Part shown: piece by piece, positions 74 through 50,662 of the stretch
Position numbering within the stretch: position 1 is the stretch's first letter
Layout of the letters: every line of letters starts with the position of its first letter
Origin: Brevibacterium moorei
Lineage (GTDB): Bacteria > Actinomycetota > Actinomycetes > Actinomycetales > Brevibacteriaceae
Assembly (NCBI RefSeq): GCF_024580735.1
Contig: NZ_JANIJX010000017.1
Coordinates: 1-64,000 of the forward strand
Reading direction: 5' to 3'
Length of the DNA: 64,000 nt
Translations under genes and position numbers: made by a program
The notes under the pieces: generated by a model
Seen by the model: only the letters and a program-made list of their open reading frames with translations
The model's database searches: none
What the model was told of the DNA's origin: nothing

Positions 74-127
74 GAGAGAATCTCCTTCTTCCAATCTCCC
101 TGCCTCTATTATTCCCGGGGCGATTCA
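1..127 (-). mobile_element. End of an IS3-family insertion sequence (rest lies left of the window)
   Basis: On the minus strand, DNA beginning TGAATCGCCCCGGG at base 127 looks like an IS3-type terminal inverted repeat (TG at the tip, followed by CGCCCCGG). It is followed 54 bases in by a transposase start reading inward. The element begins exactly where the reading frame of the neighbouring HNH gene breaks off. The other end and the short target duplication lie outside the window, so completeness cannot be judged. Family assignment rests on the end sequence and the first 24 residues of OrfA. Confidence 0.72.
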
Positions 128-1375
128 GTTGGCTGCTGTGGTGGGTCCGCCTGCTGTGGGGTTTTCGTGGTTGAAGGGTTCGATGTGGTCGAGGTCGCAG
201 GTTTGGGCTGGTCGGGTGCAGCCGGGGGCTGTGCACCAGGCCCATTTGTTTTGCAGGGTGGTGCGCAGGGCTGTGGGGATGTGGTAGCTGCGGGCTTGTT
301 CGTCGAGCACGGCCCCGGTTGCCGGGTCGGTGAGGAGGCGGCGTAGTGAGGGTGCTTGTGAGGCGAGGTGGCAGGCGATGTCGGCGGGGATGGGGGCTTT
401 GCCTGCGAGTTGTCCGGGGAGTGGTTCGTCGCCGGAGAGGGTGAGGAAGGGGACTGTGGTGGAGACCTGGGCTTGGGAGGCGAGCCAGGAGTCGTTGGTG
501 GGGATGGTCACGGTGATCTGCTGGGTGCTGGTGGGTTCGGCTGTGTCGTGGGCATCTTCGTCATTGCCGTTGTCTGCAAGGGTCTGACTGGTTGTGGGGT
601 GTTCGGTGACGGTGATGTCGAGGCTTGCGGGTGTGTTGGCGAGGATGTCGAACATGAGTTGGCCGAGGTTCCGGTCGTCGGTGATGGTGTGGTTGCCGGC
701 GTTTTTGAGGAGGATGGGGTCGGCGGCGCGGATGGCTTTGGCGAAGGCTTTGAGTCTGGCGTCGAGGGCGGTGAGGGTGTGGATGGGTCCGGTGAGTTCG
801 AGGATGCCGAGTCCGTTGCCCAGGTCGGTCAGGTGGGTGCTGCGTTCTTCGAAGGCGTGTTCCGCCGAGTGTTCGGGGGTTTTGAGCAGTGTGATGGCGG
901 CTGTGAGGGTGGCGCGGTAGTGGGTGGCGTCCGTGGTGGGTGCGAGCAGGGTGAGTGCTTGGTCGAGGTAGTCGTAGGAGCCGGCTTCGATGTCTTGGGC
1001 GCGGGAGGTTGTGTGGTCGTAGAGGTCGAAGGATAGATTCCCGGATTGCATGGCTGTGGTGAGGCGGGGGAGGAGGAACCGGCCTTTGAGGATGCGGGTG
1101 GCCAGCGCGCGGGTCTGTCCGCGAGTTTTCCCAAGGGTGGTGGCCAGTTCCATCCAGGTGGTGGCGGGTACGGCGGTGAGTAGGTCTTTGAGGGCTTCGA
1201 TGATGGCCTGTGGGTTGCGGGCGTTCGGGGCATCATCGGAGTTACCGGCGTGTTCGATTTCCTCCATGGTGGTGCCGGTGGCGGTGAGGAGGTAGTCGAT
1301 GATGGTGGTCCAGCGGGTGGACTGGGTGTGTTGGTAGTCGTCTTGGACCGCGCGGAGACTGGGGAGAGTAGACAT
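125..1375 (-). pseudogene. DUF222/HNH endonuclease, 3' end removed by IS insertion
   Basis: The 416-residue product has the long Thr/Ala-rich helical DUF222 region (about residues 30-330) and the beginning of a C-terminal HNH nuclease domain: CTAPGC, then DLDHIEPF and NPTAGGPTTAAN. In complete members this is followed by a leucine, a Cys and a His-His pair that finish the metal site. Those are absent because the IS3-type end begins at base 127 and supplies the TGA stop. The product probably lacks nuclease activity. The ATG at 1375 is preferred over one at 1396 because GAAAGGAG stands 7 bases before it. These genes are multi-copy in many actinobacteria and their biological role is poorly known. 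Confidence 0.8.
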
Positions 1376-35764: not shown

Positions 35765-37894
35765 ATGTCGAATCACAGTTCGCGTATCCGTATCGGTATC
35801 GACACCGGCGGTACGTTCACCGATGTCGTCGCATTCAACGAGGCGACCGGGGAATTGACCACCACCAAGACTCCGTCGACCCCGTCGAACCCCGCCGACG
35901 GTTTCATCAACGGCATCGACAAGGTGCTGGGCATGTTGGGCGCGGACGGCGAGGACATCGTGGCGGTCAGCCACGGCACCACGGTGGCCACCAACCAGTT
36001 GCTCGAGGGCAAGGTCGGCGACCTGGGCTTCATCACCACCGAGGGCTACGAGTTCGTCCTCGAGATCGCCCGCCAGGCCGTGCCCGACGGCTACGGCAAC
36101 TCCTACTTCTGGGTCAAGCCCGACCGCATCGTGCCGGCCGACCTGGTCAAGACCGTGGGCGGCCGGATGGACTTCGAGGGCAATGAGGTCCGCCCCTTCG
36201 ACGAGGACGCCGCCCGCACGGTGGCGCGCTGGTTCAAGGACAAGGGCATCACCACCCTGGGCGTGAACTTCCTGCACGCCTACGCCAACCCCGCGCACGA
36301 ACAGCGGATGCGGCAGATCCTGCACGAGGAGCACCCCGGGGCCATCGTCTCCCTGAGCTCCGAGGTGCTGCGCGAATACCGCGAATACGAACGCTCCATG
36401 ACCACCCTGGTCGACGCGGCCGTCAAGCCCAAGGTGTCGAAGTACGTGGCGAACATCCACGACCGCCTCGACCAGTACACCGGCACCGCAGCCGGCAAGC
36501 GCGCCGCGATCCCCTTCTACATCATGAAGTCCAACGGCGGCGTGCTCTCCGCCGACGAGGTCGTCAACCAGCCCATCACCCCCGTGCTCTCGGGACCCGC
36601 CGCCGGCGCCCTGGGCGCCGGGCTGATCGCCCGCGAAGCCGGCTTCGACAAGGTCCTGACCTGCGACGGCGGCGGCACCTCGACCGATGTGACCGTGGTG
36701 CTCGACGGCGACCCGGCGCTGACCACCGAGGGCTCCGTTGGCGTCTACCCCTCGAAGATCCCGATGATCGACGTGGTCACGGTGGGCGCCGGCGGCGGCT
36801 CGATCGCCTGGACCACCCCGGAGGGCCAGCTCAAGGTCGGCCCGCAGTCGGCCGGCGCCGACCCCGGCCCCATCTGCTACGGCAACGGCGGGACCGAGCC
36901 CACCATCACCGACGCCCACGTGTACCTGGGCCGGATCCCCGCGCACCTGCTCGGCGGGGAGATCCCGCTGGACGCGGACGCCGCCCGCTCCGGCATCGCG
37001 CAGATCGCCGCGAAGCTGGGCCTGTCCACGGAGAAGGCCGCCACCGGCATCCTGGAGATCAGCGCCTGGAACCAGGCGAACGCCCTGAGCCAGATCTCCG
37101 TCAAGCGCGGCCTGGACGTGCGCGACTTCATGCTCGCGACCTTCGGCGGCTCCGGCTCGCTGCTGGCCTGCCGCCTGGTCGACATCCTCAACCTGGCCGG
37201 CGTGGTCGTGCCGCTGAACCCCGGCAACGTCTCCGCCTTCGGCCTGCTGACCGTGGACGTGAAGAACGACTACGTGCAGACCCACGTGGCCAAGGACATC
37301 GGCCTGGACATCGACACGATCGCCGGGATCTTCGACGAACTGCAGACCAAGGCCACCGCAGCGCTGGACAACGAGGGCTTCGCCGCCGCCGACCACCGCT
37401 TCGACCGCTCGGTCGACCTGCGCTACTTCGGCCAGGCCTTCGAGGTCAGGGTGCCGGCCCCCTCCGGCGCGATCACCCGCGACTGGGCGGACGAGGTGAC
37501 CCACGCCTTCCACGCCGAACACCGCCGGCTCTACGGCTACGACTTCGAGGGCAATGCCGATCAGCAAGTCGAATGGGTCAACGTCCGGGTCTCCGGCATC
37601 GGCCCGATCACCCGCCCGCAGATCAAGCAGATCGCCTCGGCGACCGGGGCCGCGGCCCTCGACGAGCGGGCCCGCACCGGAGAACGCGGCGTGTGCTTCG
37701 ACGCGGAGGCCGGCTTCGTGGAAGCGCCCATCTACTGGCGCCCCGAACTGCTGGCCGGCGATGTCATCACCGGCCCCGCCATCATCGAGGAATTCGGCTC
37801 GACCGTGCCCCTGCACCCGGGCTTCACCGCCCGGATCGACCAGGCGGCGAACATCATCATCACCCGCAGCGCAAACCAGGAGGCAGCCAAGTGA
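35765..37894 (+). CDS. hyuA: Hydantoinase/oxoprolinase family protein, subunit A
   Basis: A 709-residue HyuA-type protein. The actin-like ATPase features include GIDTGGTFTDVVAFN (residues 11-25), VSHGTTVATNQLLEG, SNGGVLSADE and CDGGGTSTDVTVV. With HyuB it forms an ATP-dependent enzyme that hydrolyses cyclic amides such as hydantoins, N-methylhydantoin or 5-oxoproline; related pairs carboxylate ketones. The exact substrate cannot be read from sequence. GAAGGGA precedes the ATG. A TAGTCT box at 35730-35735 may be its promoter. The gene starts a run of seven co-directional genes, with only short overlaps or gaps until xdhC. In this purine/pyrimidine context a hydantoin-like ring is the likely target. 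Confidence 0.88.
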   Translation: MSNHSSRIRIGIDTGGTFTDVVAFNEATGELTTTKTPSTPSNPADGFINGIDKVLGMLGADGEDIVAVSHGTTVATNQLLEGKVGDLGFITTEGYEFVLEIARQAVPDGYGNSYFWVKPDRIVPADLVKTVGGRMDFEGNEVRPFDEDAARTVARWFKDKGITTLGVNFLHAYANPAHEQRMRQILHEEHPGAIVSLSSEVLREYREYERSMTTLVDAAVKPKVSKYVANIHDRLDQYTGTAAGKRAAIPFYIMKSNGGVLSADEVVNQPITPVLSGPAAGALGAGLIAREAGFDKVLTCDGGGTSTDVTVVLDGDPALTTEGSVGVYPSKIPMIDVVTVGAGGGSIAWTTPEGQLKVGPQSAGADPGPICYGNGGTEPTITDAHVYLGRIPAHLLGGEIPLDADAARSGIAQIAAKLGLSTEKAATGILEISAWNQANALSQISVKRGLDVRDFMLATFGGSGSLLACRLVDILNLAGVVVPLNPGNVSAFGLLTVDVKNDYVQTHVAKDIGLDIDTIAGIFDELQTKATAALDNEGFAAADHRFDRSVDLRYFGQAFEVRVPAPSGAITRDWADEVTHAFHAEHRRLYGYDFEGNADQQVEWVNVRVSGIGPITRPQIKQIASATGAAALDERARTGERGVCFDAEAGFVEAPIYWRPELLAGDVITGPAIIEEFGSTVPLHPGFTARIDQAANIIITRSANQEAAK

Positions 37895-39924
37895 CGCAGG
37901 CAGCGCAGAACACCGTGCAGACCCCCACCGACTCCGGATCCATGCTGGGCCTTGAACCACTGACCGGCCAGGCCCTGCAGGACTACATCGAGGCCCAACC
38001 GATCAACCCCGCCGGCCTGCCGACGCCGTACGAACACGGCGAACGGCTGACCCCGGAGGGGACCTCGGTCGACCCGATCGTCGTCGAAATCGTCGAGGGC
38101 ACCCTGGCCAGCGTGGAGATGGAGGTGGAGACCGCCATCGCCAGGACCTCGCGCTCGCCGATGATCCGCGACGCCCACGACTTCCGCGCCGGCATCCACG
38201 ACCGGCAGCTGCGCAAGCTGACCGGCCGATCGTACTCCGCCCTGGTCCACCCCGTGGTGCGTGACTACCCCATCGACCAGATGAAGGAAGGCGACGTCTT
38301 CTTCCACAACGACGTCTACGAATCCGAAGGCGGCATCGGCCACCTGCCGGACATGTGCGTGACCGTCCCCGTGTTCGCCGACGGCAAGGTCGTGTGCTTC
38401 GTGCAGGCCTTCGGCCACCACGACGACATCGGCGGCGCGACACCGGGCTCCATGCCCTCGGCCGCGACCAGCGTGTTCGAGGAGGGCCTGATGATCCCCC
38501 CGATCAAGCTGTGGGACCAGGGCGTGCCGAACAAGTCCGCCCAGCGCATCATGACGCGCAACTCCCGGATGCCCGACTCCATCGCGGCGGACCTGGACGC
38601 GGAGTGCTCCGCCTGCCTGATGGGCGCCCGCCGGCTGTCCGAGCTGTTCACCCGCTACGGCGTGGACACCGTGGAGGCCGCCTTCGACACGATCCTGGAC
38701 AATACGACGGAGATCTACCGGCGCGAGATCCTCTCGAAGATCCCCGACGGACAGTACGTGTGGGAGGACTACGCAGAACACGACGGGGTCTCCGATCCGA
38801 TGCTGCACACCCAGCGGATCACCCTGACGAAGACCTCGACGGGCGGCCCGGGCGATGGCCCGCGCCTCATCATCGACTTCACCGGCACTGCGGCCCAGGC
38901 TGTGGGCCCGATCAACCACTGCGGCGACTACGTGGGCGGGAACTTCCTGAAGAAGTGGCTGGCGCCGATCCTGCGCAACCTGGCAGACACCCCGGAGCGG
39001 ATGGCCGAACTGGACGTCAACGAGGGCATCGTGCCGCTCATCGAGATGCGCTTCCCCGAGAAGGGCACGCTGCTCACCCCCGTGTTCCCCGGGCCCACGA
39101 ACGCCCGCACCTTCGTCATCCTGCGCCTGCTGGGCGTGCTGGCCGGCGTGGTCGCCAAGGCCGTGGACGGACAGATGCCGGCGGACCAGGAGACGATCCG
39201 CTACACCGGCGTCTACGGCAAGGACCGCGACGGCAACGACTATCTGATGCGCGAAGTGCTCGGCGGCGGCTCCGGCGGGCGCTACTACTCCGACGGCGAG
39301 GACACCATCCACGTGGTGCCCGACTCCCGCAACCTGCCCACCGAGTTCACCGAGTCCCGCTTCCCCTTCCTAGTGGAGCGCCTGGGCCTGGCCCAGGATT
39401 CCGGCGGTGCCGGCCGCTACCGCGGCGGGCTGGGCTATGAGAAGCACATCCGGATGCTCAAGGACGGACACTTCATGTCGATCGCCGACAGGTCCATCCT
39501 GGCCTGCTGGGGTGTCAAGGGCGGTCTGGCGGGCAAGCCCTTCCAGGTCACCATCGACCCGGGCGGCCCGGAGGAGCGCGAAGTTGAGGCGCTGGCCGAC
39601 GACGAGCCGATCAGGGCCGGCCAGGTGGTGCGCATCCGCACCACCGGCGGCGGCGGCTGGGGCGACCCGCTGGAGCGGCCCTATGACGAGGTGCTGCGCG
39701 ATGTCCGCTGGGCCAAGGTGTCCGTGGCCGGGGCGCACGACTCCTACGGCGTCGTGATCACCGGCACCGGCGACGATGTCGCGGTGGACGTCGCGGCCTC
39801 GGACGCGCTGCGCGCCGAAATGCGAGCCGGACGCACCGGCGAGGAGCCGTTCTTCGACCGCGGGCCCGGCTTCGCGGCCCTGGCCGGCGACGGGTCCCAG
39901 GCGCCGTCCGTGGACTGGCTGTGA
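37891..39924 (+). CDS. hyuB: Hydantoinase/oxoprolinase family protein, subunit B
   Basis: A 677-residue HyuB-type subunit, partner of the preceding HyuA. Family segments seen are DPIVVEIVEGTLASVEMEVE, the HNDVYESEGGIGHLPD region, GHHDDIGGATPGSMP with its metal-site-like His pair, and the C-terminal TTGGGGWGDPLERP. It starts with GTG (37891) overlapping the hyuA stop, preceded by AGGAGG at 7 bases; longer in-frame sequence upstream lies inside hyuA and is not coding. Together the two subunits should bind ATP and open a cyclic amide. Confidence 0.9.
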   Translation: MTQAAQNTVQTPTDSGSMLGLEPLTGQALQDYIEAQPINPAGLPTPYEHGERLTPEGTSVDPIVVEIVEGTLASVEMEVETAIARTSRSPMIRDAHDFRAGIHDRQLRKLTGRSYSALVHPVVRDYPIDQMKEGDVFFHNDVYESEGGIGHLPDMCVTVPVFADGKVVCFVQAFGHHDDIGGATPGSMPSAATSVFEEGLMIPPIKLWDQGVPNKSAQRIMTRNSRMPDSIAADLDAECSACLMGARRLSELFTRYGVDTVEAAFDTILDNTTEIYRREILSKIPDGQYVWEDYAEHDGVSDPMLHTQRITLTKTSTGGPGDGPRLIIDFTGTAAQAVGPINHCGDYVGGNFLKKWLAPILRNLADTPERMAELDVNEGIVPLIEMRFPEKGTLLTPVFPGPTNARTFVILRLLGVLAGVVAKAVDGQMPADQETIRYTGVYGKDRDGNDYLMREVLGGGSGGRYYSDGEDTIHVVPDSRNLPTEFTESRFPFLVERLGLAQDSGGAGRYRGGLGYEKHIRMLKDGHFMSIADRSILACWGVKGGLAGKPFQVTIDPGGPEEREVEALADDEPIRAGQVVRIRTTGGGGWGDPLERPYDEVLRDVRWAKVSVAGAHDSYGVVITGTGDDVAVDVAASDALRAEMRAGRTGEEPFFDRGPGFAALAGDGSQAPSVDWL

Positions 39925-39928
39925 CGCG

Positions 39929-40858
39929 ATGAGGGTACTGGTGGCCCTGGGCGGCAACGCCATGACCGGGCCGGACGGGGACGCCTCACCGGACGCCCAG
40001 CGGCGCGCGATCGCCCGGGCCGCCGTGCACCTGGCCGATCTGGTGGCGGCCGGCCACGAGGTGGTCGTCACCCACGGCAACGGCCCGCAGGTCGGCAACA
40101 TCATGCGCAAGAACGAGCTGGCATCGGTCGAGCTCCCACCGGTCAGCCTGGACTGGTGCGGGGCGCAGACCCAGGGCACCCTGGGCTTCACGATCGTCAA
40201 CCGGATCGAGAAGGAACTGGGTGCCCGCGGGATCGACAAGCACGTCACCGCGCTCGTCACCCGCACCGTGGTGGACCCGGACGATCCGGCCTTCGACGAT
40301 CCGGTCAAGCCGATCGGGTCCTACCAGGACGCGGCCCACGCCGCGCGGATGAGCGCGCTGGGCCAGGTCTGGAAGGACTTCGGGGCCAAGGGCTGGCGGC
40401 GCGTCGTGCCCTCGCCGGATCCGCAGGAGATCCTGGAGACGCCCACCGTGACCCATCTGGTGGACGCCGGCTGGATCGTGGTGGCCGCCGGTGGCGGCGG
40501 CATCCCCGTGGTGCCCGACGGTACCGGCTACAACGGGGCCTCGGCCGTGATCGACAAGGACCTCAGCGCGGCCAGGCTGGCGCTGTCGGTGGGCGCGGAC
40601 CGGCTGGTCATCGCCACCGATGTGCCCTATGCGGTCGCGGGCTTCGGCACGCCGGAGGCACGCGATATCGAACAGGTGGACGTGGCCGGACTGCGCGCGA
40701 TCGCAGCCCAGGGCACCTTCGCTTCCGGGTCCATGGGCCCCAAGGTCGAGGCGGTCCTGCGCTTCGTCGAGGGCGGCGGGCCGATGGGCGTGATCGCCTC
40801 CTTGGACGCCCTGCCCGAGGCCGTGGCCGGCACCGCGGGCACGGTGGTGACGGCGTAG
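39929..40858 (+). CDS. arcC: Carbamate kinase
   Basis: Transfers phosphate from carbamoyl phosphate to ADP, giving ATP, CO2 and ammonia. The 309-residue protein has VALGGNAM at residues 4-11, VVTHGNGPQVGN, VVAAGGGGIPVV and GSMGPKVEAVLRF, all typical. No arginine deiminase or ornithine carbamoyltransferase lies nearby, so the carbamoyl phosphate must come from elsewhere. The AllFGH-like genes (44911-48941) are the natural source, as AllK/YlbK pairs with them in E. coli. The ATG lies 4 bases after the hyuB stop. Confidence 0.94.
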   Translation: MRVLVALGGNAMTGPDGDASPDAQRRAIARAAVHLADLVAAGHEVVVTHGNGPQVGNIMRKNELASVELPPVSLDWCGAQTQGTLGFTIVNRIEKELGARGIDKHVTALVTRTVVDPDDPAFDDPVKPIGSYQDAAHAARMSALGQVWKDFGAKGWRRVVPSPDPQEILETPTVTHLVDAGWIVVAAGGGGIPVVPDGTGYNGASAVIDKDLSAARLALSVGADRLVIATDVPYAVAGFGTPEARDIEQVDVAGLRAIAAQGTFASGSMGPKVEAVLRFVEGGGPMGVIASLDALPEAVAGTAGTVVTA

Positions 40859-44910: not shown

Positions 44911-47895
44911 TCAGGCCCGCTGGGCCAGGGTCTCGATGCCGGTGGTGAAGCACTCGCGCGGGGGATTGACCAGCCCGGCGCCCACCTGGCCCACACCTGC
45001 GACCCGGCCGGCCATGCCCGTGTTGATCTGCGGCAGCACGTTCGTGCGCAGCACCTTGACGATGTCGATGCCGGAGGGCACGCCGCGGAACTCCAGGATC
45101 GGGATCTGGTGGACCGGGTGCTCGCCCAGGGTGATCTCGTACATCCGCTGCGTGGTCTCCACGGCGAAGGGCACGTCCCCGCCCACCAGGCGCACTACGG
45201 CCGGTGCCGCGGCCATGGCCAGGCCGCCGATCCCGGCGGTCTCCGTGATGGCGGAGTCGCCGATGTCCGGGTTCGCGTCCTCGGGTCCGTAGGAGCCCAG
45301 GAACAGGCCCTCGGCGATCTGCGCGGGACCGGTGTACCAGGTGTCACCGGTGCCGGCCAGCTGCACGCCGAACTCCGTGCCGTTGCGCGCCATGGTCACG
45401 ACCATGGACGAACCGGCCACGCCCTTGGCCGCGTGCATCGCGAGCTTGCAGGTGGGCATCACCAGGTTGAGCGCGAAGTAGTCATTGGCGCCCAGGAAGC
45501 GGCAGACCTCGGCCAGATCGGAGGACTCCCAGCCGTCCAGGTTCAGCAGATCGGGCATCAGATCGCGCAGGAACAGCAGGGTCGCCGTGCGGTTGCGGTT
45601 GTGCCCCTCATCGCCGGACTGCAGCATCTGGGAGACATAGTATTTCGTGTCGATCGGACCGTGCGCGGCCACCGCCGCGCCCAACACAGGGCCCAGCACA
45701 TCGCGCATCCAGCGCAGCCGGGTGAGCACCTCGTCGTTGTTCGCGCCGTAGCGCAGCACTTTGCCCAGGCCCTCGTTGAGCGAACAGTAGGCGCGGCCGC
45801 CGTAGACCGGGTCGCGCAGCTCGAACATCCACATCGAGGGGCTGACCACGCCGGCCATCGGGCCCACCGCATCGCGCGAATGGCACGGGGCCATGGTGAA
45901 GCGGCCGTCGGCCAGGCCGGCCTCGGCCTCCTCGAGGGTATCGGCCAGGCCCTCGAAGACCACTGCGCCGGCCAGCGCGCCGCGCATCGGGCCCGAGGCG
46001 TTCTCCCACTGCAGCGGCGGGCCCGAGTGCAGGAACTCGTTGTCCGCCAGGCCCAGGCATTCGCGGGCGGGCCGTAGACCCACCAGTTCCGCTCCGGCAT
46101 TCAGGATCCGCTCGAGCGCCTCCTGGTTCGCCGCCAGTCTCCGGGGATCGGACATCACCCGGTAGATCGCGGCGGCATCGCCCAGCGGCGGCTGCCAGGG
46201 GACCTCGGTGACGTCGACGGCCTGGGCGCGCAGGGCATCGGCGAACAGCGCCACGCCCACGGTGGCGACCGTGGGCTCCCCGTCGAGCAGGCCGTGCAGC
46301 GCCGGGCCGGCGGCCTCGGCCGCGGCGGTCAGGGCGGACTCCGCACCGGCGGCAGCCGGCGCAGACCCGGCCGGCGCGGCTGCGGCCGGCTGCGCGGACG
46401 CGACGCCCAGCAGTTCCAGCGCCCGACGCACGGCCTGTGCATTGGAGGCGTAGACCTCGGCCCCGGCGGCCACCAGCGTCTGCGCCGTGGCGGCGAGGTC
46501 CTGCGGATCGGCGGGCGTGCCCAACAGGCTCACGACCACCGGCAGGTTCCGGCCGGAGTCCGCCGCGGCGGCCCTGGCGTCCGAGATCGCCGCGGCCAGA
46601 TCAGCCGCCGGGTCCTGATGGGCGCCATGGCCCAGCACCAGATCCAGCACCAGGACGCCGGCGTGTTCGGCCTGGGCGCGGATCGCCTCGAGGCGCAGGC
46701 CCGGATCGATCATCGGGTGGGCGCGCCCCTGGGTCATGGCGTCGTCGCCGAAGTCCACCACGGCATGACCGGTGGCCGGAATCCGCGCGCCGTCGATGCG
46801 CGGGGCGCCGGCCAGCGGGATGTTCGAGGGAATGGGGCCCAGCCCGGCCGCGGCGATCAGCATGGCCTCATCGGCCAGGGTGCCGCCGCAGAACAGACCG
46901 CGCAGCGGGCCGGCGACGTCTCCGGCCGCAGTGGTGCTCTCCGGCAGCCAGCGCGGCCACCGGGGTGCGGGGTGTCCGGCCGCGGCCAGGGCGTGCTCGA
47001 CGCCGGCCGTCAGATCGGGGGAGTCCGGGCCCAAGACGGCCCAGCTGACCGCCAGGCCCAGCTCGGCGGCCAGGGATTCGACCTTGGCCACGACCTGCGG
47101 ATCGGCCGGTTTGGACACGACGACGACGTGCTCGGTGGCGGGATCGGCGGCCAGGGCGCGCAGCGCCTGCTTGGTCGTCAGACCGCCGACCTGCGCGCTC
47201 AGATCGCGTCCGCCTGTGCCGATCAGATGACTCACACCCACACCGGCCGCGTCGAGCAGCGTCGAGACCTGCTGGGACCCGGTGCCAGAGGCCCCGACGA
47301 TGCCGAAGGAGCCGGCGGCGACCCGGTTGGCGAAGCCCAGACCCGCGCCGCCGATGATCGCGGTGCCGCAATCGGGGCCCATCAGCAGCAGATCGCGCTC
47401 GCCGGCGTAGCGCTTGAGTTCGACCTCGGTGGCGACGTCGACATTGTCGCTGAACAGCAGGACGGAACTGCCGGCGTCCAGGGCGGCCCTGGCCTCGATC
47501 CCGGCGTAGGCGCCGGGCACGGATACCACGGTGAGGTTGGCGCCGGCCCGGTCCACCGCGGACTCGACCGTCAGCGGGGGCTGGACGCCCGCGCCGAGGC
47601 CGCCGGCGGACTTCGCCGCGGCGGTCAGTTCCGCGAAGGCCGAGTCGACGGCGGTGCGCCCGGCGGCCAGGGTGTCCTCGTCGGTGGCGCGCAGGGCGAT
47701 GACCAGGTCGTTCGGGGTGACGTCGGCGGGTACCGGGAAGCCCACCCCGCGCATCAGTTCCAGGTTGAGTTCGGTGCCCATGCCGATCAGGGCATCGGTG
47801 ATTCCCTCCGTGGTCTGCTTGACCCGGGTCGAGACTTGCATGAGGGCGACGGAGTCGAAGTAGAGGCCGGCTTTGACGTCGAGGAGTTCGGGCAC
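44911..47895 (-). CDS. fdrA: FdrA-DUF1116 fusion, AllF-AllG-like carbamoyltransferase subunit
   Basis: A 994-residue fusion of two proteins that are separate in E. coli (FdrA and YlbE, now AllF and AllG, components of oxamate carbamoyltransferase). Residues 1-500 are FdrA-like, with a succinyl-CoA-synthetase-type nucleotide fold (LMGPDCGTAIIGG at 171-183, GIVGASGTGSQQV). An Ala-rich linker (about 500-535) joins DUF1116 (about 536-994). The GTG at 47895 is preceded by AAAGGGA and starts the conserved N-terminus. In-frame sequence upstream only mirrors the neighbouring DUF2877 gene. Expected role: phosphorolysis of a carbamoyl compound to carbamoyl phosphate for carbamate kinase. Confidence 0.88.
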   Translation of the reverse strand: MPELLDVKAGLYFDSVALMQVSTRVKQTTEGITDALIGMGTELNLELMRGVGFPVPADVTPNDLVIALRATDEDTLAAGRTAVDSAFAELTAAAKSAGGLGAGVQPPLTVESAVDRAGANLTVVSVPGAYAGIEARAALDAGSSVLLFSDNVDVATEVELKRYAGERDLLLMGPDCGTAIIGGAGLGFANRVAAGSFGIVGASGTGSQQVSTLLDAAGVGVSHLIGTGGRDLSAQVGGLTTKQALRALAADPATEHVVVVSKPADPQVVAKVESLAAELGLAVSWAVLGPDSPDLTAGVEHALAAAGHPAPRWPRWLPESTTAAGDVAGPLRGLFCGGTLADEAMLIAAAGLGPIPSNIPLAGAPRIDGARIPATGHAVVDFGDDAMTQGRAHPMIDPGLRLEAIRAQAEHAGVLVLDLVLGHGAHQDPAADLAAAISDARAAAADSGRNLPVVVSLLGTPADPQDLAATAQTLVAAGAEVYASNAQAVRRALELLGVASAQPAAAAPAGSAPAAAGAESALTAAAEAAGPALHGLLDGEPTVATVGVALFADALRAQAVDVTEVPWQPPLGDAAAIYRVMSDPRRLAANQEALERILNAGAELVGLRPARECLGLADNEFLHSGPPLQWENASGPMRGALAGAVVFEGLADTLEEAEAGLADGRFTMAPCHSRDAVGPMAGVVSPSMWMFELRDPVYGGRAYCSLNEGLGKVLRYGANNDEVLTRLRWMRDVLGPVLGAAVAAHGPIDTKYYVSQMLQSGDEGHNRNRTATLLFLRDLMPDLLNLDGWESSDLAEVCRFLGANDYFALNLVMPTCKLAMHAAKGVAGSSMVVTMARNGTEFGVQLAGTGDTWYTGPAQIAEGLFLGSYGPEDANPDIGDSAITETAGIGGLAMAAAPAVVRLVGGDVPFAVETTQRMYEITLGEHPVHQIPILEFRGVPSGIDIVKVLRTNVLPQINTGMAGRVAGVGQVGAGLVNPPRECFTTGIETLAQRA

Positions 47896-47963
47896 GGGCT
47901 TGTCCCTTTCGATCGGGGTGGATGGACGTGGACGTTTGGTAGTGCAGGATGCGCTGGTGCGGT

Positions 47964-48941
47964 TCACGGGGCGGCGCGCGCGGTCGCGGTGGCCGGGTCC
48001 GCCGGAGCCTCCGGTGCGCCGCGGGCCCGGTGGGCCAGGGCCGCTCCCAGCAGCAGGTCGTATCCGGAACTGTGGCCGATCCCGGAGACCAGTTGCAGGG
48101 CCGGTTCCGGGTCGGTGAGATCCGCGAGCGAGGCGATCGCGCGGGCCGTCTGCGGCAGGCAGTAGCCGGCCAGGGCGGCTTCGATCAGCGAGGCCGACAG
48201 CGCCGGGGTGCGCGCGTAGAGCAGGGGGCCGGGCAGGTGTTCGCGCAGGAGCGCCAGCGCGCTGTCCTGCCCGCCGGCGCGCAGGGCCAGGGCGACACCG
48301 CAGAGCAGATCGTCGCCCGAGGGCGTGCTGCCGGGGCCGAAGCCCAGCAGGTGGTGCACGGCGGAGGTCAGGGCAGGGGACCGCTCGGTCAGGGCGGCCA
48401 GCAGTTCCCGGCCCCGGCGGGCCAGGTCGGAGTGCCCGGTGTGTGCGGCGATCGTCGCGAGCACTTCGGCGGCCCCGCCGGCTGCGGCCCGTGGCGCCGC
48501 GGCGGGCGAAGGGCGGGCGGCCACCGGCTGTACCCGCCGACGGGCGATCCTGGTGGGCCGCCAGGTGCGGGCCGCGCGCAGCTGCAGGCCGTCGGTCTCC
48601 AACGCCCGCACGAGCCCTGTCCGGTCGGTGTGGACCAGGACCGGATCGCCGGTGGAGATTCCGGCCAGGTGCCGGTGGTCCAGTCCGGGGCAGCGCAGTC
48701 CGGTTGGCAGCTCGAGGGCGCCGGGGCCCAGGACGGGCAGCACGCGCGGGCACGGTCCGGTGGTGCAGACGTAGAAGCCGGTGCCGAAGATCTGCAGAAC
48801 GGCACCCGGCAGCACGGCTTCCGACCGGACCGTGCGGGGCCGGCCGGCAACTGGGGCCCCGGCCACCGGACTCGGGGTCGGCGGGGTCGAAAAGGGCAGG
48901 GGGGAGGCCGCCGCCGGGATGATAAGTGATCTGGACCTCAC
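47964..48941 (-). CDS. allH: DUF2877 protein, AllH-like
   Basis: A 325-residue DUF2877 protein with the family signature GFGPGSTPSGDDLL (near residue 200) and GHSSGYDLLLG near the end. Its E. coli homologue YlbF/AllH is the third component of the oxamate carbamoyltransferase. It is followed by the FdrA-DUF1116 fusion on the same strand with a 68-base gap, so all three functions are present. The GTG at 48941 is the longest start; the first 40 residues are Pro/Ala-rich and a later start is possible. It is divergent from pucR. Confidence 0.82.
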   Translation of the reverse strand: MRSRSLIIPAAASPLPFSTPPTPSPVAGAPVAGRPRTVRSEAVLPGAVLQIFGTGFYVCTTGPCPRVLPVLGPGALELPTGLRCPGLDHRHLAGISTGDPVLVHTDRTGLVRALETDGLQLRAARTWRPTRIARRRVQPVAARPSPAAAPRAAAGGAAEVLATIAAHTGHSDLARRGRELLAALTERSPALTSAVHHLLGFGPGSTPSGDDLLCGVALALRAGGQDSALALLREHLPGPLLYARTPALSASLIEAALAGYCLPQTARAIASLADLTDPEPALQLVSGIGHSSGYDLLLGAALAHRARGAPEAPADPATATARAAP

Positions 48942-48976: not shown

Positions 48977-50662
48977 ATGTCAAACGATGCCAAGAAGAGG
49001 CCCGATTTGCAGCAAGAAATGCTACTCGAGCTCGAGGGTGTCGAAACGGTGGCGCTGACGGTCCGCGAAGTGCTTCAGCTGCCCAGCATGCGGGGCTGCA
49101 CCGTGGTCGCCGGTCGCGCGGGGCTGGACCGGCTGGTCGAGAAGACCAATGTCATGGAGGTCCCCGACATCCTCCCCTGGGTCAAACCGCGCGAACTCCT
49201 GTTGACCACCGGATATCCGCTGCGGGAGGCCCCCGACGCCCTGGTGGAGTTGCTGGGCCGCGTCGAAGCGGCGGGGGTCTCTGCCCTGTGCATCAAACCG
49301 GGTCGCTATATCGACCGGATCCCACCGCAGGCGCTGGCCGAGGCCGAACGCCTGTCCCTGCCCATTCTGGAGCTGGGCGAGGGCGTGGGATTCGACGAGA
49401 TCATGCACGAGGTGCTCTCCTCGAGCCTGAGCCGGGGCGTAGCCATGATCCGGCTGGCCGAACACACCATGCGGGAACTGGTCAACGTGGTCGTCGGCGG
49501 TGGCGACCTGACGGACGTGTGCCGGATGCTCATCGAGCGCATCGGCTTCGCCGCGGCCGTCACCACCCTGGACGGCCGCCTCAAGGCGATGGTGGCCGAA
49601 TCAGATGCCGAACGCGAACGCCTGCTGGGCCTGAGCTGCTTCGACGAATCCGGCAGGTTCATCGTCGAGGACGAGCCGGCCAGGGCGGCCAGGTCCCAGG
49701 GGCAGGTGTTCTGGGGCAACTGTCAGATCCTCGATGACGAGCGGACGCTGGGCCGGATCGTGGCGTTCTCCGACCGGACCCCGGGGGACGTCGAATTCCG
49801 GGTGCTGGAGCAGGCGGCCGCGGCCGCCGCCCTGGTGCTGGCCCGCGAGCAGTCGGTGGCGGCGGTGGAGAGCAAGTACCGCAGCGACTTCGTGCTCGAA
49901 GTGCTGCGCGGGCACATTGCATCCCCGGAGCGCACGGTGTCACATGCGAAGTCCCTGGGATGGGACCTGGACCGTGAACTCAACGTGGTCGTCGCCGAGG
50001 CCGATCCCAGCGATGACAGCGTGGCCGCCGACGATCTGTCCCAGTTGCAGACGCTGTTCGCCCGCGCCTGGTCCTCTGTGGTCTCCGCCGACGATCCCCA
50101 TGCGGCGGTCGTCGGGTCGGGCGATCAGGTGATCCTGCTGCTGGCGGCGGCCGACCGCGACGAGATCGTCGAGCGGGTGCGCGCCTACGCCACCGCGGTG
50201 CGGGGGCGCGGCGGCGGTGGCCGGAGGGAGTTCTCCGTGGGGATCTCGCGGCCCACCGCGGACGTCGTCGACCTGGCCGATGCCTATCAGCAGGCGACCA
50301 GGGCCCTGGACGTGGGGCGTCAGCTGGGGGCCGGCCACAACTTCAGCCACTTCGACGGACTGGGCGTCTACCGGTTGCTGCTGCACGTGGGGCAGAAGGA
50401 GGAACTGCGCGCCTTCGCCCAGGAGACCTTGGGCGTGCTGGCCGGCGATGACAAACCGGAATACGCGGACCTGCGGGAGACCCTGCAGGCCCTGCTCGAC
50501 CACAATCTCAACGTCGCGGAGACGGCACGGGCGCTGTTCTTCCACTACAACACGCTGCGCTATCGGATCACCAAACTCGAACGCATGATCGGTCCATTCA
50601 CCCGTGATCCGCACCTGCGGCTCGCCGTCGAACTCGCCCTGCAGATCGTCAAACTTCCATAG
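48977..50662 (+). CDS. pucR: PucR-family transcriptional regulator
   Basis: A 561-residue regulator. The N-terminal PucR domain (about residues 32-150) has LQLPSMRGCTVVAGRAGLDR and KPRELLLTTGYPL. A middle CdaR/GGDEF-like region follows, and the C-terminal helix-turn-helix is LNVAETARALFFHYNTLRYR (about 513-532). PucR controls purine catabolism in Bacillus; the family responds to purine or allantoin-type metabolites. It is divergent from the AllFGH-like genes and upstream of the NCS2 permeases, so it probably controls both. Sequence does not show whether it activates. Confidence 0.9.
   Translation: MSNDAKKRPDLQQEMLLELEGVETVALTVREVLQLPSMRGCTVVAGRAGLDRLVEKTNVMEVPDILPWVKPRELLLTTGYPLREAPDALVELLGRVEAAGVSALCIKPGRYIDRIPPQALAEAERLSLPILELGEGVGFDEIMHEVLSSSLSRGVAMIRLAEHTMRELVNVVVGGGDLTDVCRMLIERIGFAAAVTTLDGRLKAMVAESDAERERLLGLSCFDESGRFIVEDEPARAARSQGQVFWGNCQILDDERTLGRIVAFSDRTPGDVEFRVLEQAAAAAALVLAREQSVAAVESKYRSDFVLEVLRGHIASPERTVSHAKSLGWDLDRELNVVVAEADPSDDSVAADDLSQLQTLFARAWSSVVSADDPHAAVVGSGDQVILLLAAADRDEIVERVRAYATAVRGRGGGGRREFSVGISRPTADVVDLADAYQQATRALDVGRQLGAGHNFSHFDGLGVYRLLLHVGQKEELRAFAQETLGVLAGDDKPEYADLRETLQALLDHNLNVAETARALFFHYNTLRYRITKLERMIGPFTRDPHLRLAVELALQIVKLP

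Follow-up and report, generated by a model that had tools for sequence, protein, structure and literature searches.

As the original prediction on this DNA had assumed, AllF and AllG of oxamic transcarbamylase (OXTCase) are separate polypeptides in E. coli, where the K-12 genes have 555 and 419 codons, and a locus of Brevibacterium moorei raises the question of whether the two have become one chain there and what such a joining says about the build of the enzyme. We addressed this question in a 64,000-nucleotide stretch of the genome (the window).

A one-frame allF-allG gene and its surroundings

The original prediction placed a chain of 994 residues in a single frame at 44911-47895. These coordinates proved right, and the strand, which had been left unstated, is the minus strand (Table 1): read in reverse from 47895 to 44911, the DNA opens with GTG, runs through 994 stop-free codons and ends in TGA, and translation of the forward strand does not yield the protein. 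Within the chain, Pfam profiles detected CoA_binding (PF02629) at residues 197-266 (25.0 bits, cut-off 22.3), Ligase_CoA (PF00549) at residues 334-492 (92.5 bits, cut-off 24.5) and AllG (PF06545) at residues 667-881 (290 bits, cut-off 27). The NCBI FdrA profile (PRK06091/NF004760) aligned residues 7-581 with its positions 6-551 of 555, at a score of 388.6 bits that misses the cut-off of 433 bits for E. coli-type FdrA; judged by these profiles, the AllF half is homologous to PRK06091 FdrA, yet lies outside that NCBI subfamily. The FdrA part had been delimited correctly as residues 1-500, whereas residues 534-572, which had been counted as AllG, make up a separate module. As far as homology tells, this segment lies outside the AllG core, and E. 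coli AllG does not include it. The earlier reading overlooked the module at the start of the AllG half, and in E. coli the same module belongs to AllF.

Table 1. Features of the allF-allG locus, in positions of the window
Feature	Position	Strand	Remarks
Fused allF-allG gene	44911..47895	minus	GTG start at 47895, 994 codons, TGA at 44913-44911
Putative Shine-Dalgarno-like AAAGGGA	47903..47909	minus	7 nt 5' of the fusion GTG; spotted by eye
FdrA/AllF half, residues 1-500	46396..47895	minus	CoA_binding 197-266, Ligase_CoA 334-492
Ala/Pro-rich linker, residues 501-533	46297..46395	minus	low predicted confidence, varies among relatives
Module, residues 534-572	46180..46296	minus	strand 542-547, helix 549-557, strand 561-565; G547, W567, P569
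AllG/DUF1116 core, residues 583-994	44914..46149	minus	PF06545 match and 3clq_A structural match
allH (DUF2877)	47964..48941	minus	directly upstream of the fusion on the same strand; PF11392 69 bits, cut-off 25; start position approximate
Carbamate kinase (AllK role)	39929..40858	plus	frame listed from 39776, kinase starts at M52; NF009007 284.5 bits, cut-off 266
PucR-type purine-catabolism regulator	48977..50662	plus	divergent from allH-allFG; domain match

Besides the PucR regulator, the neighbouring genes encode xanthine dehydrogenase-type subunits, XdhC-, CoxE- and MocA-like proteins, an amidase, MoaA, MoeA and hydantoinases A and B, and of two permease frames nearby the one that was scanned is a xanthine/uracil permease. 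The carbamate kinase at 39929-40858 stayed under the TIGR00746 cut-off (332.3 vs 358.25). The genes for hydantoinases A and B (35765-39924) adjoin that for the kinase, and these enzymes may supply a carbamoylated substrate to the same cluster.

Since AllF-type, AllG and AllH domains exceed their Pfam cut-offs and genes for carbamate kinase and xanthine dehydrogenase lie nearby, we assigned the chain to the AllF-AllG core family. From homology and context we infer an oxamic transcarbamylase, and OXTCase activity can be presumed for this organism; to our knowledge, that activity is known from no Actinomycetota. The AllF-AllG core would be supplied as one chain, with AllH coming from the adjoining gene and a carbamate kinase encoded nearby; the enzyme would convert oxalurate and phosphate to oxamate and carbamoyl phosphate, from which the kinase would yield ATP and ammonia. 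We consider it unlikely, though worth keeping in mind, that the complex catalyses some other, related reaction, for example a different carbamoyl transfer or an acyl-CoA ligation. FdrA was long annotated as an acyl-CoA synthetase (available text of PMC11326118), the NCBI cut-off for E. coli-type FdrA is not reached, E. coli itself has a paralogous set of unknown role (YahEFG), and both E. coli sets, AllFG and YahFG, fall in other branches of our tree than the window protein; set against this is the joint presence of all three subunit families together with a carbamate kinase and a regulator of the purine type.

Spread of the fusion and nature of its joint

All 16 Brevibacterium genomes found to carry the gene, among 57 of the genus searched, have it fused in a single stop-free frame, and the other 15 proteins are 68-75% identical to that of the window. 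As the fusion is intact in every carrier, a sequencing or assembly error or a chance frame is excluded. The search in other genomes, which the original prediction had proposed as a check, recovered the fusion across Brevibacterium and in other Actinomycetota, Chloroflexota and Spirochaetota. Named fused loci in Actinomycetota are, besides Brevibacterium, those of Herbidospora cretacea, Streptosporangiaceae NEAU-GS5 and an unplaced Actinomycetota MAG; fused as well are a Tetrasphaera MAG, whose AllG is cut off by the contig end, a Coriobacteriia MAG, Treponema and Sphaerochaeta MAGs, and Leptolinea and another Chloroflexi MAG. Within the family of the window, one genome has the two genes split, and in another AllF and AllG share one frame with a single TGA between them (positions 2992-2994 of locus L018), which makes it a near-fusion.

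Rates were taken from genome-search samples and not from the named loci, the ranking of which favours one-frame pairs. Fused AllG places numbered 6 of 30 examined in the order sample (30 of 31 rows; 297 genomes), 3 of 73 in the class sample (73 of 74 rows; 296 genomes), 3 of 52 in the phylum sample (396 genomes) and 3 of 18 in Spirochaetota (296 genomes), with none among 27 in Thermotogota (103 genomes) and none among the best-scoring 30 of the places listed for Chloroflexota (301 genomes); these samples overlap, and those of Spirochaetota and Chloroflexota were built around genomes in which a fusion had already been seen. Taken by itself, the AllF-AllG fusion is a modest change to a known enzyme, and one that has come about repeatedly.

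We considered whether either subunit had lost a portion where the two meet, and rejected this, as the joint falls between the natural ends of split relatives. Between the AllF-domain match and the module, the linker spans 35-63 residues in the 16 Brevibacterium genomes and consists to 71-90% of A, G, P, S, T, E, D or Q, with a sequence that changes from one genome to another. The predicted Ala/Pro-rich character holds for the window, in which these two residues make up 59% of the linker, but is not conserved in the other 15 fusions (20-41%). Predicted confidence in the linker is pLDDT 33-78 by blocks of ten residues (AlphaFold2).

A long linker that is predicted to be disordered could be cut, or AllG could be made additionally from an internal start, and in either case separate AllF and AllG would arise and the stoichiometry would not be fixed. 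The window does contain a GTG with a GGAG-like site inside the module, and some other Brevibacterium linkers hold an isolated in-frame start with a GGAG- or AGGAG-like site. The internal GTG, however, would delete the first strand of the module, between 8 residues ahead of the end of the FdrA-domain match and 49 residues beyond it the window has no in-frame ATG, GTG or TTG, and the 16 fusions have no start or Shine-Dalgarno position in common. The claim of a single start may hold for the window and is tempered by the isolated candidates in some relatives; judged by sequence, an internal start for the AllG half is not favoured, and we regard a divided product as very improbable.

A short module in four arrangements

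Residues 534-572 have homologues in the final ~48 residues of E. coli FdrA, in the head of YahG and in free mini-genes; the module measures about 45 residues and has a consensus of roughly VVNVGLxxFADALxxQxVxVxxVDWRPP. Using a module profile seeded with the window copy, we located it at AllG heads, AllF tails and fused joints. It heads AllG in most relatives, sits at the joint in fusions, forms the FdrA tail in E. coli (residues 508-555), where the partner YlbE has none, and is a separate gene of 54-59 residues between allF and allG in Thermotogota and scattered others; at four loci that seemed to be without it, the module was present as such a small frame between the two genes. E. coli YahF is without a module and YahG opens with one, and K-12 therefore holds both arrangements in its paralogous sets AllFG and YahFG (L053 5681-8617 and L161 2779-5744).

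Exactly one module was found in each of 256 distinct F-G pairs: at the AllG head in 191 (two of them divergent), at a fused joint in 29, at the AllF tail in 20 and as a free gene in 16. These pairs are those of 287 distinct AllG places that have AllF in the locus; the 31 excluded places, without FdrA in the locus, comprised 17 with the module on AllG, four with a divergent module on AllG and ten without a module. Two loci first scored as module-less have a copy at the start of AllG that diverges enough to score under the profile cut-off. In the four genomes with a divergent module on AllG among the excluded places, the AllF match ends at profile positions 496-498, so that this AllF is module-less. 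At relaxed thresholds no second copy was detected at any of 207 AllF ends or 36 AllG starts. With the profiles frozen, a Spirochaetota sample drawn later again gave one module in 15 of 15 pairs (ten on AllG, one divergent on AllG that scored under the profile cut-off and was judged by eye, three fused and one free). Three of the 18 places in that sample are without AllF; two of these loci (L340, L344) are cut by the contig end, and the third (L346) shows no AllF and no module within the stretch examined. Another locus of the sample (L335) comes from the same genome as L093.

If each pair holds one module, a module-less AllG should be accompanied by a module-bearing AllF or by no AllF, and this prediction was tested. 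In G1157 (loci L286 and L316), the AllF lies about 4.5 kb upstream of a module-less AllG and ends with the module (match to profile positions 6-555 of 555); an allF-allG pair need not be adjacent. The other eight genomes (nine places) with a module-less AllG relative have no FdrA, only SucD-like stretches (profile 106-293) or nothing, with one of these places lacking coverage of the AllG start and two of the genomes being 68% and 81% complete. DUF1116 proteins at eight loci, in genomes without FdrA, have no module, and DUF1116 proteins of this kind may have another role.

Among 258 copies, which were picked by the profile, the module Gly is kept in all 258 and the Trp in 255. Most free module genes have a Shine-Dalgarno-like site and either overlap allF or are separated from it by a short gap, and with a median dN/dS of 0.136 (24 of 45 pairs usable) they are, on sequence grounds, under purifying selection. 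Two free copies lie on 2.97 Mb contigs of genomes of about 3.0 Mb, and broken assembly is therefore not their cause. Of five free module genes tested none matched a Pfam family, and all four tested against the NCBI FdrA profile matched its last 50 positions (E 2.9e-9 to 0.0094). The occurrence of the module in either subunit, at the joint or in its own gene suggests a working part in its own right.

Both AlphaFold2 models render the module as strand-helix-strand with high confidence. With a 111-row alignment, the chain reached pLDDT 94.2 and pTM 0.92 and the module about 95, and with 13 fused rows the values were 83.3, 0.80 and 90-94; the latter is the cleaner witness, because the larger alignment set some split-AllF ends wrongly on the module. 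The two halves have solved folds: the AllG core matched 3clq_A (Z 65, rmsd 1.0 over 412 residues), the Enterococcus faecalis AllG relative 3CLQ, the construct of which starts at residue ~54-59 of its protein and is thus without the module, and the AllF half matched 3DMY, E. coli FdrA, the sequence of which includes the module (chain 427-473), and SucD folds. In model 1 the 3DMY alignment extends into the module (105..571 on 103..541), though with an rmsd of 19.7, and in model 2 its range goes as far as a stray residue 952. SucD, the succinyl-CoA synthetase alpha subunit, resembles residues 13-312 (Z ~15, rmsd 2.6-3.1), but has neither an AllG partner nor a module. In covariation analysis, the module had 35 top pairs with AllF against 28 expected and 24 with AllG against 36 (226 pairs, effective number 132); neither the structural comparison nor covariation revealed a contact of the module with one half or the other. 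The FdrA variant D296Y described in the available text of PMC8550087 falls outside the module.

Origin of the fusion and its meaning for the complex

On a tree of 105 rows, from a quick IQ-TREE search without bootstrap and with the root placed for drawing only, fusion required eight changes, seven of them forced by well-supported branches, and the four module arrangements required 16. The fusions of Brevibacterium fall into a single clade (8 rows, SH-aLRT 99) whose sister row, from Ornithinimicrobium pekingense, has split genes and carries the module on AllG. In Brevibacterium and in most other Actinomycetota, the fusions are placed among relatives that bear the module on AllG; that of Coriobacteriia lies near relatives with the module on AllF, and two Chloroflexota fusions nest among split relatives of that kind. 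Given its placement, the Brevibacterium fusion most likely arose from AllF joining a module-headed AllG. An AllG that already bore the strand-helix-strand module would have been attached by its natural start to the natural end of AllF, with a new disordered linker inserted between the two.

The free variation of linker length and sequence would also fit a neutral fusion by stop-codon loss, kept in Brevibacterium by descent, with the module as a drifting interdomain peptide, and such joining is made easy by stop and start codons that overlap or sit close in many relatives. We judge this improbable, given that the fusion recurs, that the module keeps its Gly and Trp and has genes of its own with Shine-Dalgarno sites and a low dN/dS, and that a drifting peptide would not be retained exactly once.

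The reading that we prefer, with a probability of about 0.68, is that the window encodes an OXTCase AllF-AllG core as one chain in which the module has a function within the AllF-AllG complex, is present in one copy and couples the halves. The module would belong to the complex and to neither subunit, with exactly one per complex whichever gene encodes it, and may dock AllF to AllG, its most likely job being to complete or cap their interface.

The E. coli systems offer a comparison. AllFGH has the same three families, carbamate kinase in the same cluster and one module per AllF-AllG pair (PMC11326118, available text); its AllF and AllG, however, are separate chains and its module is an AllF tail, whereas that of the window comes from an AllG head. 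YahE-YahF-YahG, of unknown role, likewise combines DUF2877, FdrA-like and DUF1116 proteins and has YahG headed by the module as in the split relatives of the window, but consists of separate chains in another branch of the tree. According to the available text of PMC11326118, the OXTCase genes of E. coli were identified only in 2024 and the enzyme is unlike any other transcarbamylase; when AllF and AllH were tagged, untagged AllG was purified along with them, and when only AllH carried a tag, AllF and AllG were lost. This pattern fits an AllF-AllG core to which AllH is held more loosely, and the fact that AllF and AllG, and not AllH, are fused in the window agrees with it. Together with repeated independent fusion, these data partly support the original proposal that AllF and AllG act as one complex. 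As to the claim that fusion fixes their stoichiometry, one chain does impose 1:1 synthesis; equal AllF and AllG had already been predicted from SDS-PAGE in the same source, in which the western blot did not show equality. Table 5 of that paper gives AllG twice in the subunit formula, the second probably being AllH. We found no solved OXTCase complex.

On balance, we lean towards a bolder formulation, in which a 45-residue module is a fourth, hidden component of OXTCase; it would be encoded in four interchangeable ways, always once, would lie at the AllF-AllG interface or active site and would be able to act in trans, with Brevibacterium carrying AllF, module and AllG in one chain. The roaming, always single module is a less expected result than the fusion, and neither of them is mentioned in the available text of the open-licence PMC articles PMC11326118, PMC3364942, PMC12625717 and PMC12535856. 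Structural studies could use the fusion as an AllF-AllG core in one chain, and the module is a specific short segment for testing. Genomes with the free form carry a tiny gene outside any Pfam family that could escape notice, and if the module works in trans, its tail, head, free and fused forms would be a natural split-enzyme series, in which a part crosses gene boundaries while the enzyme stays unchanged.
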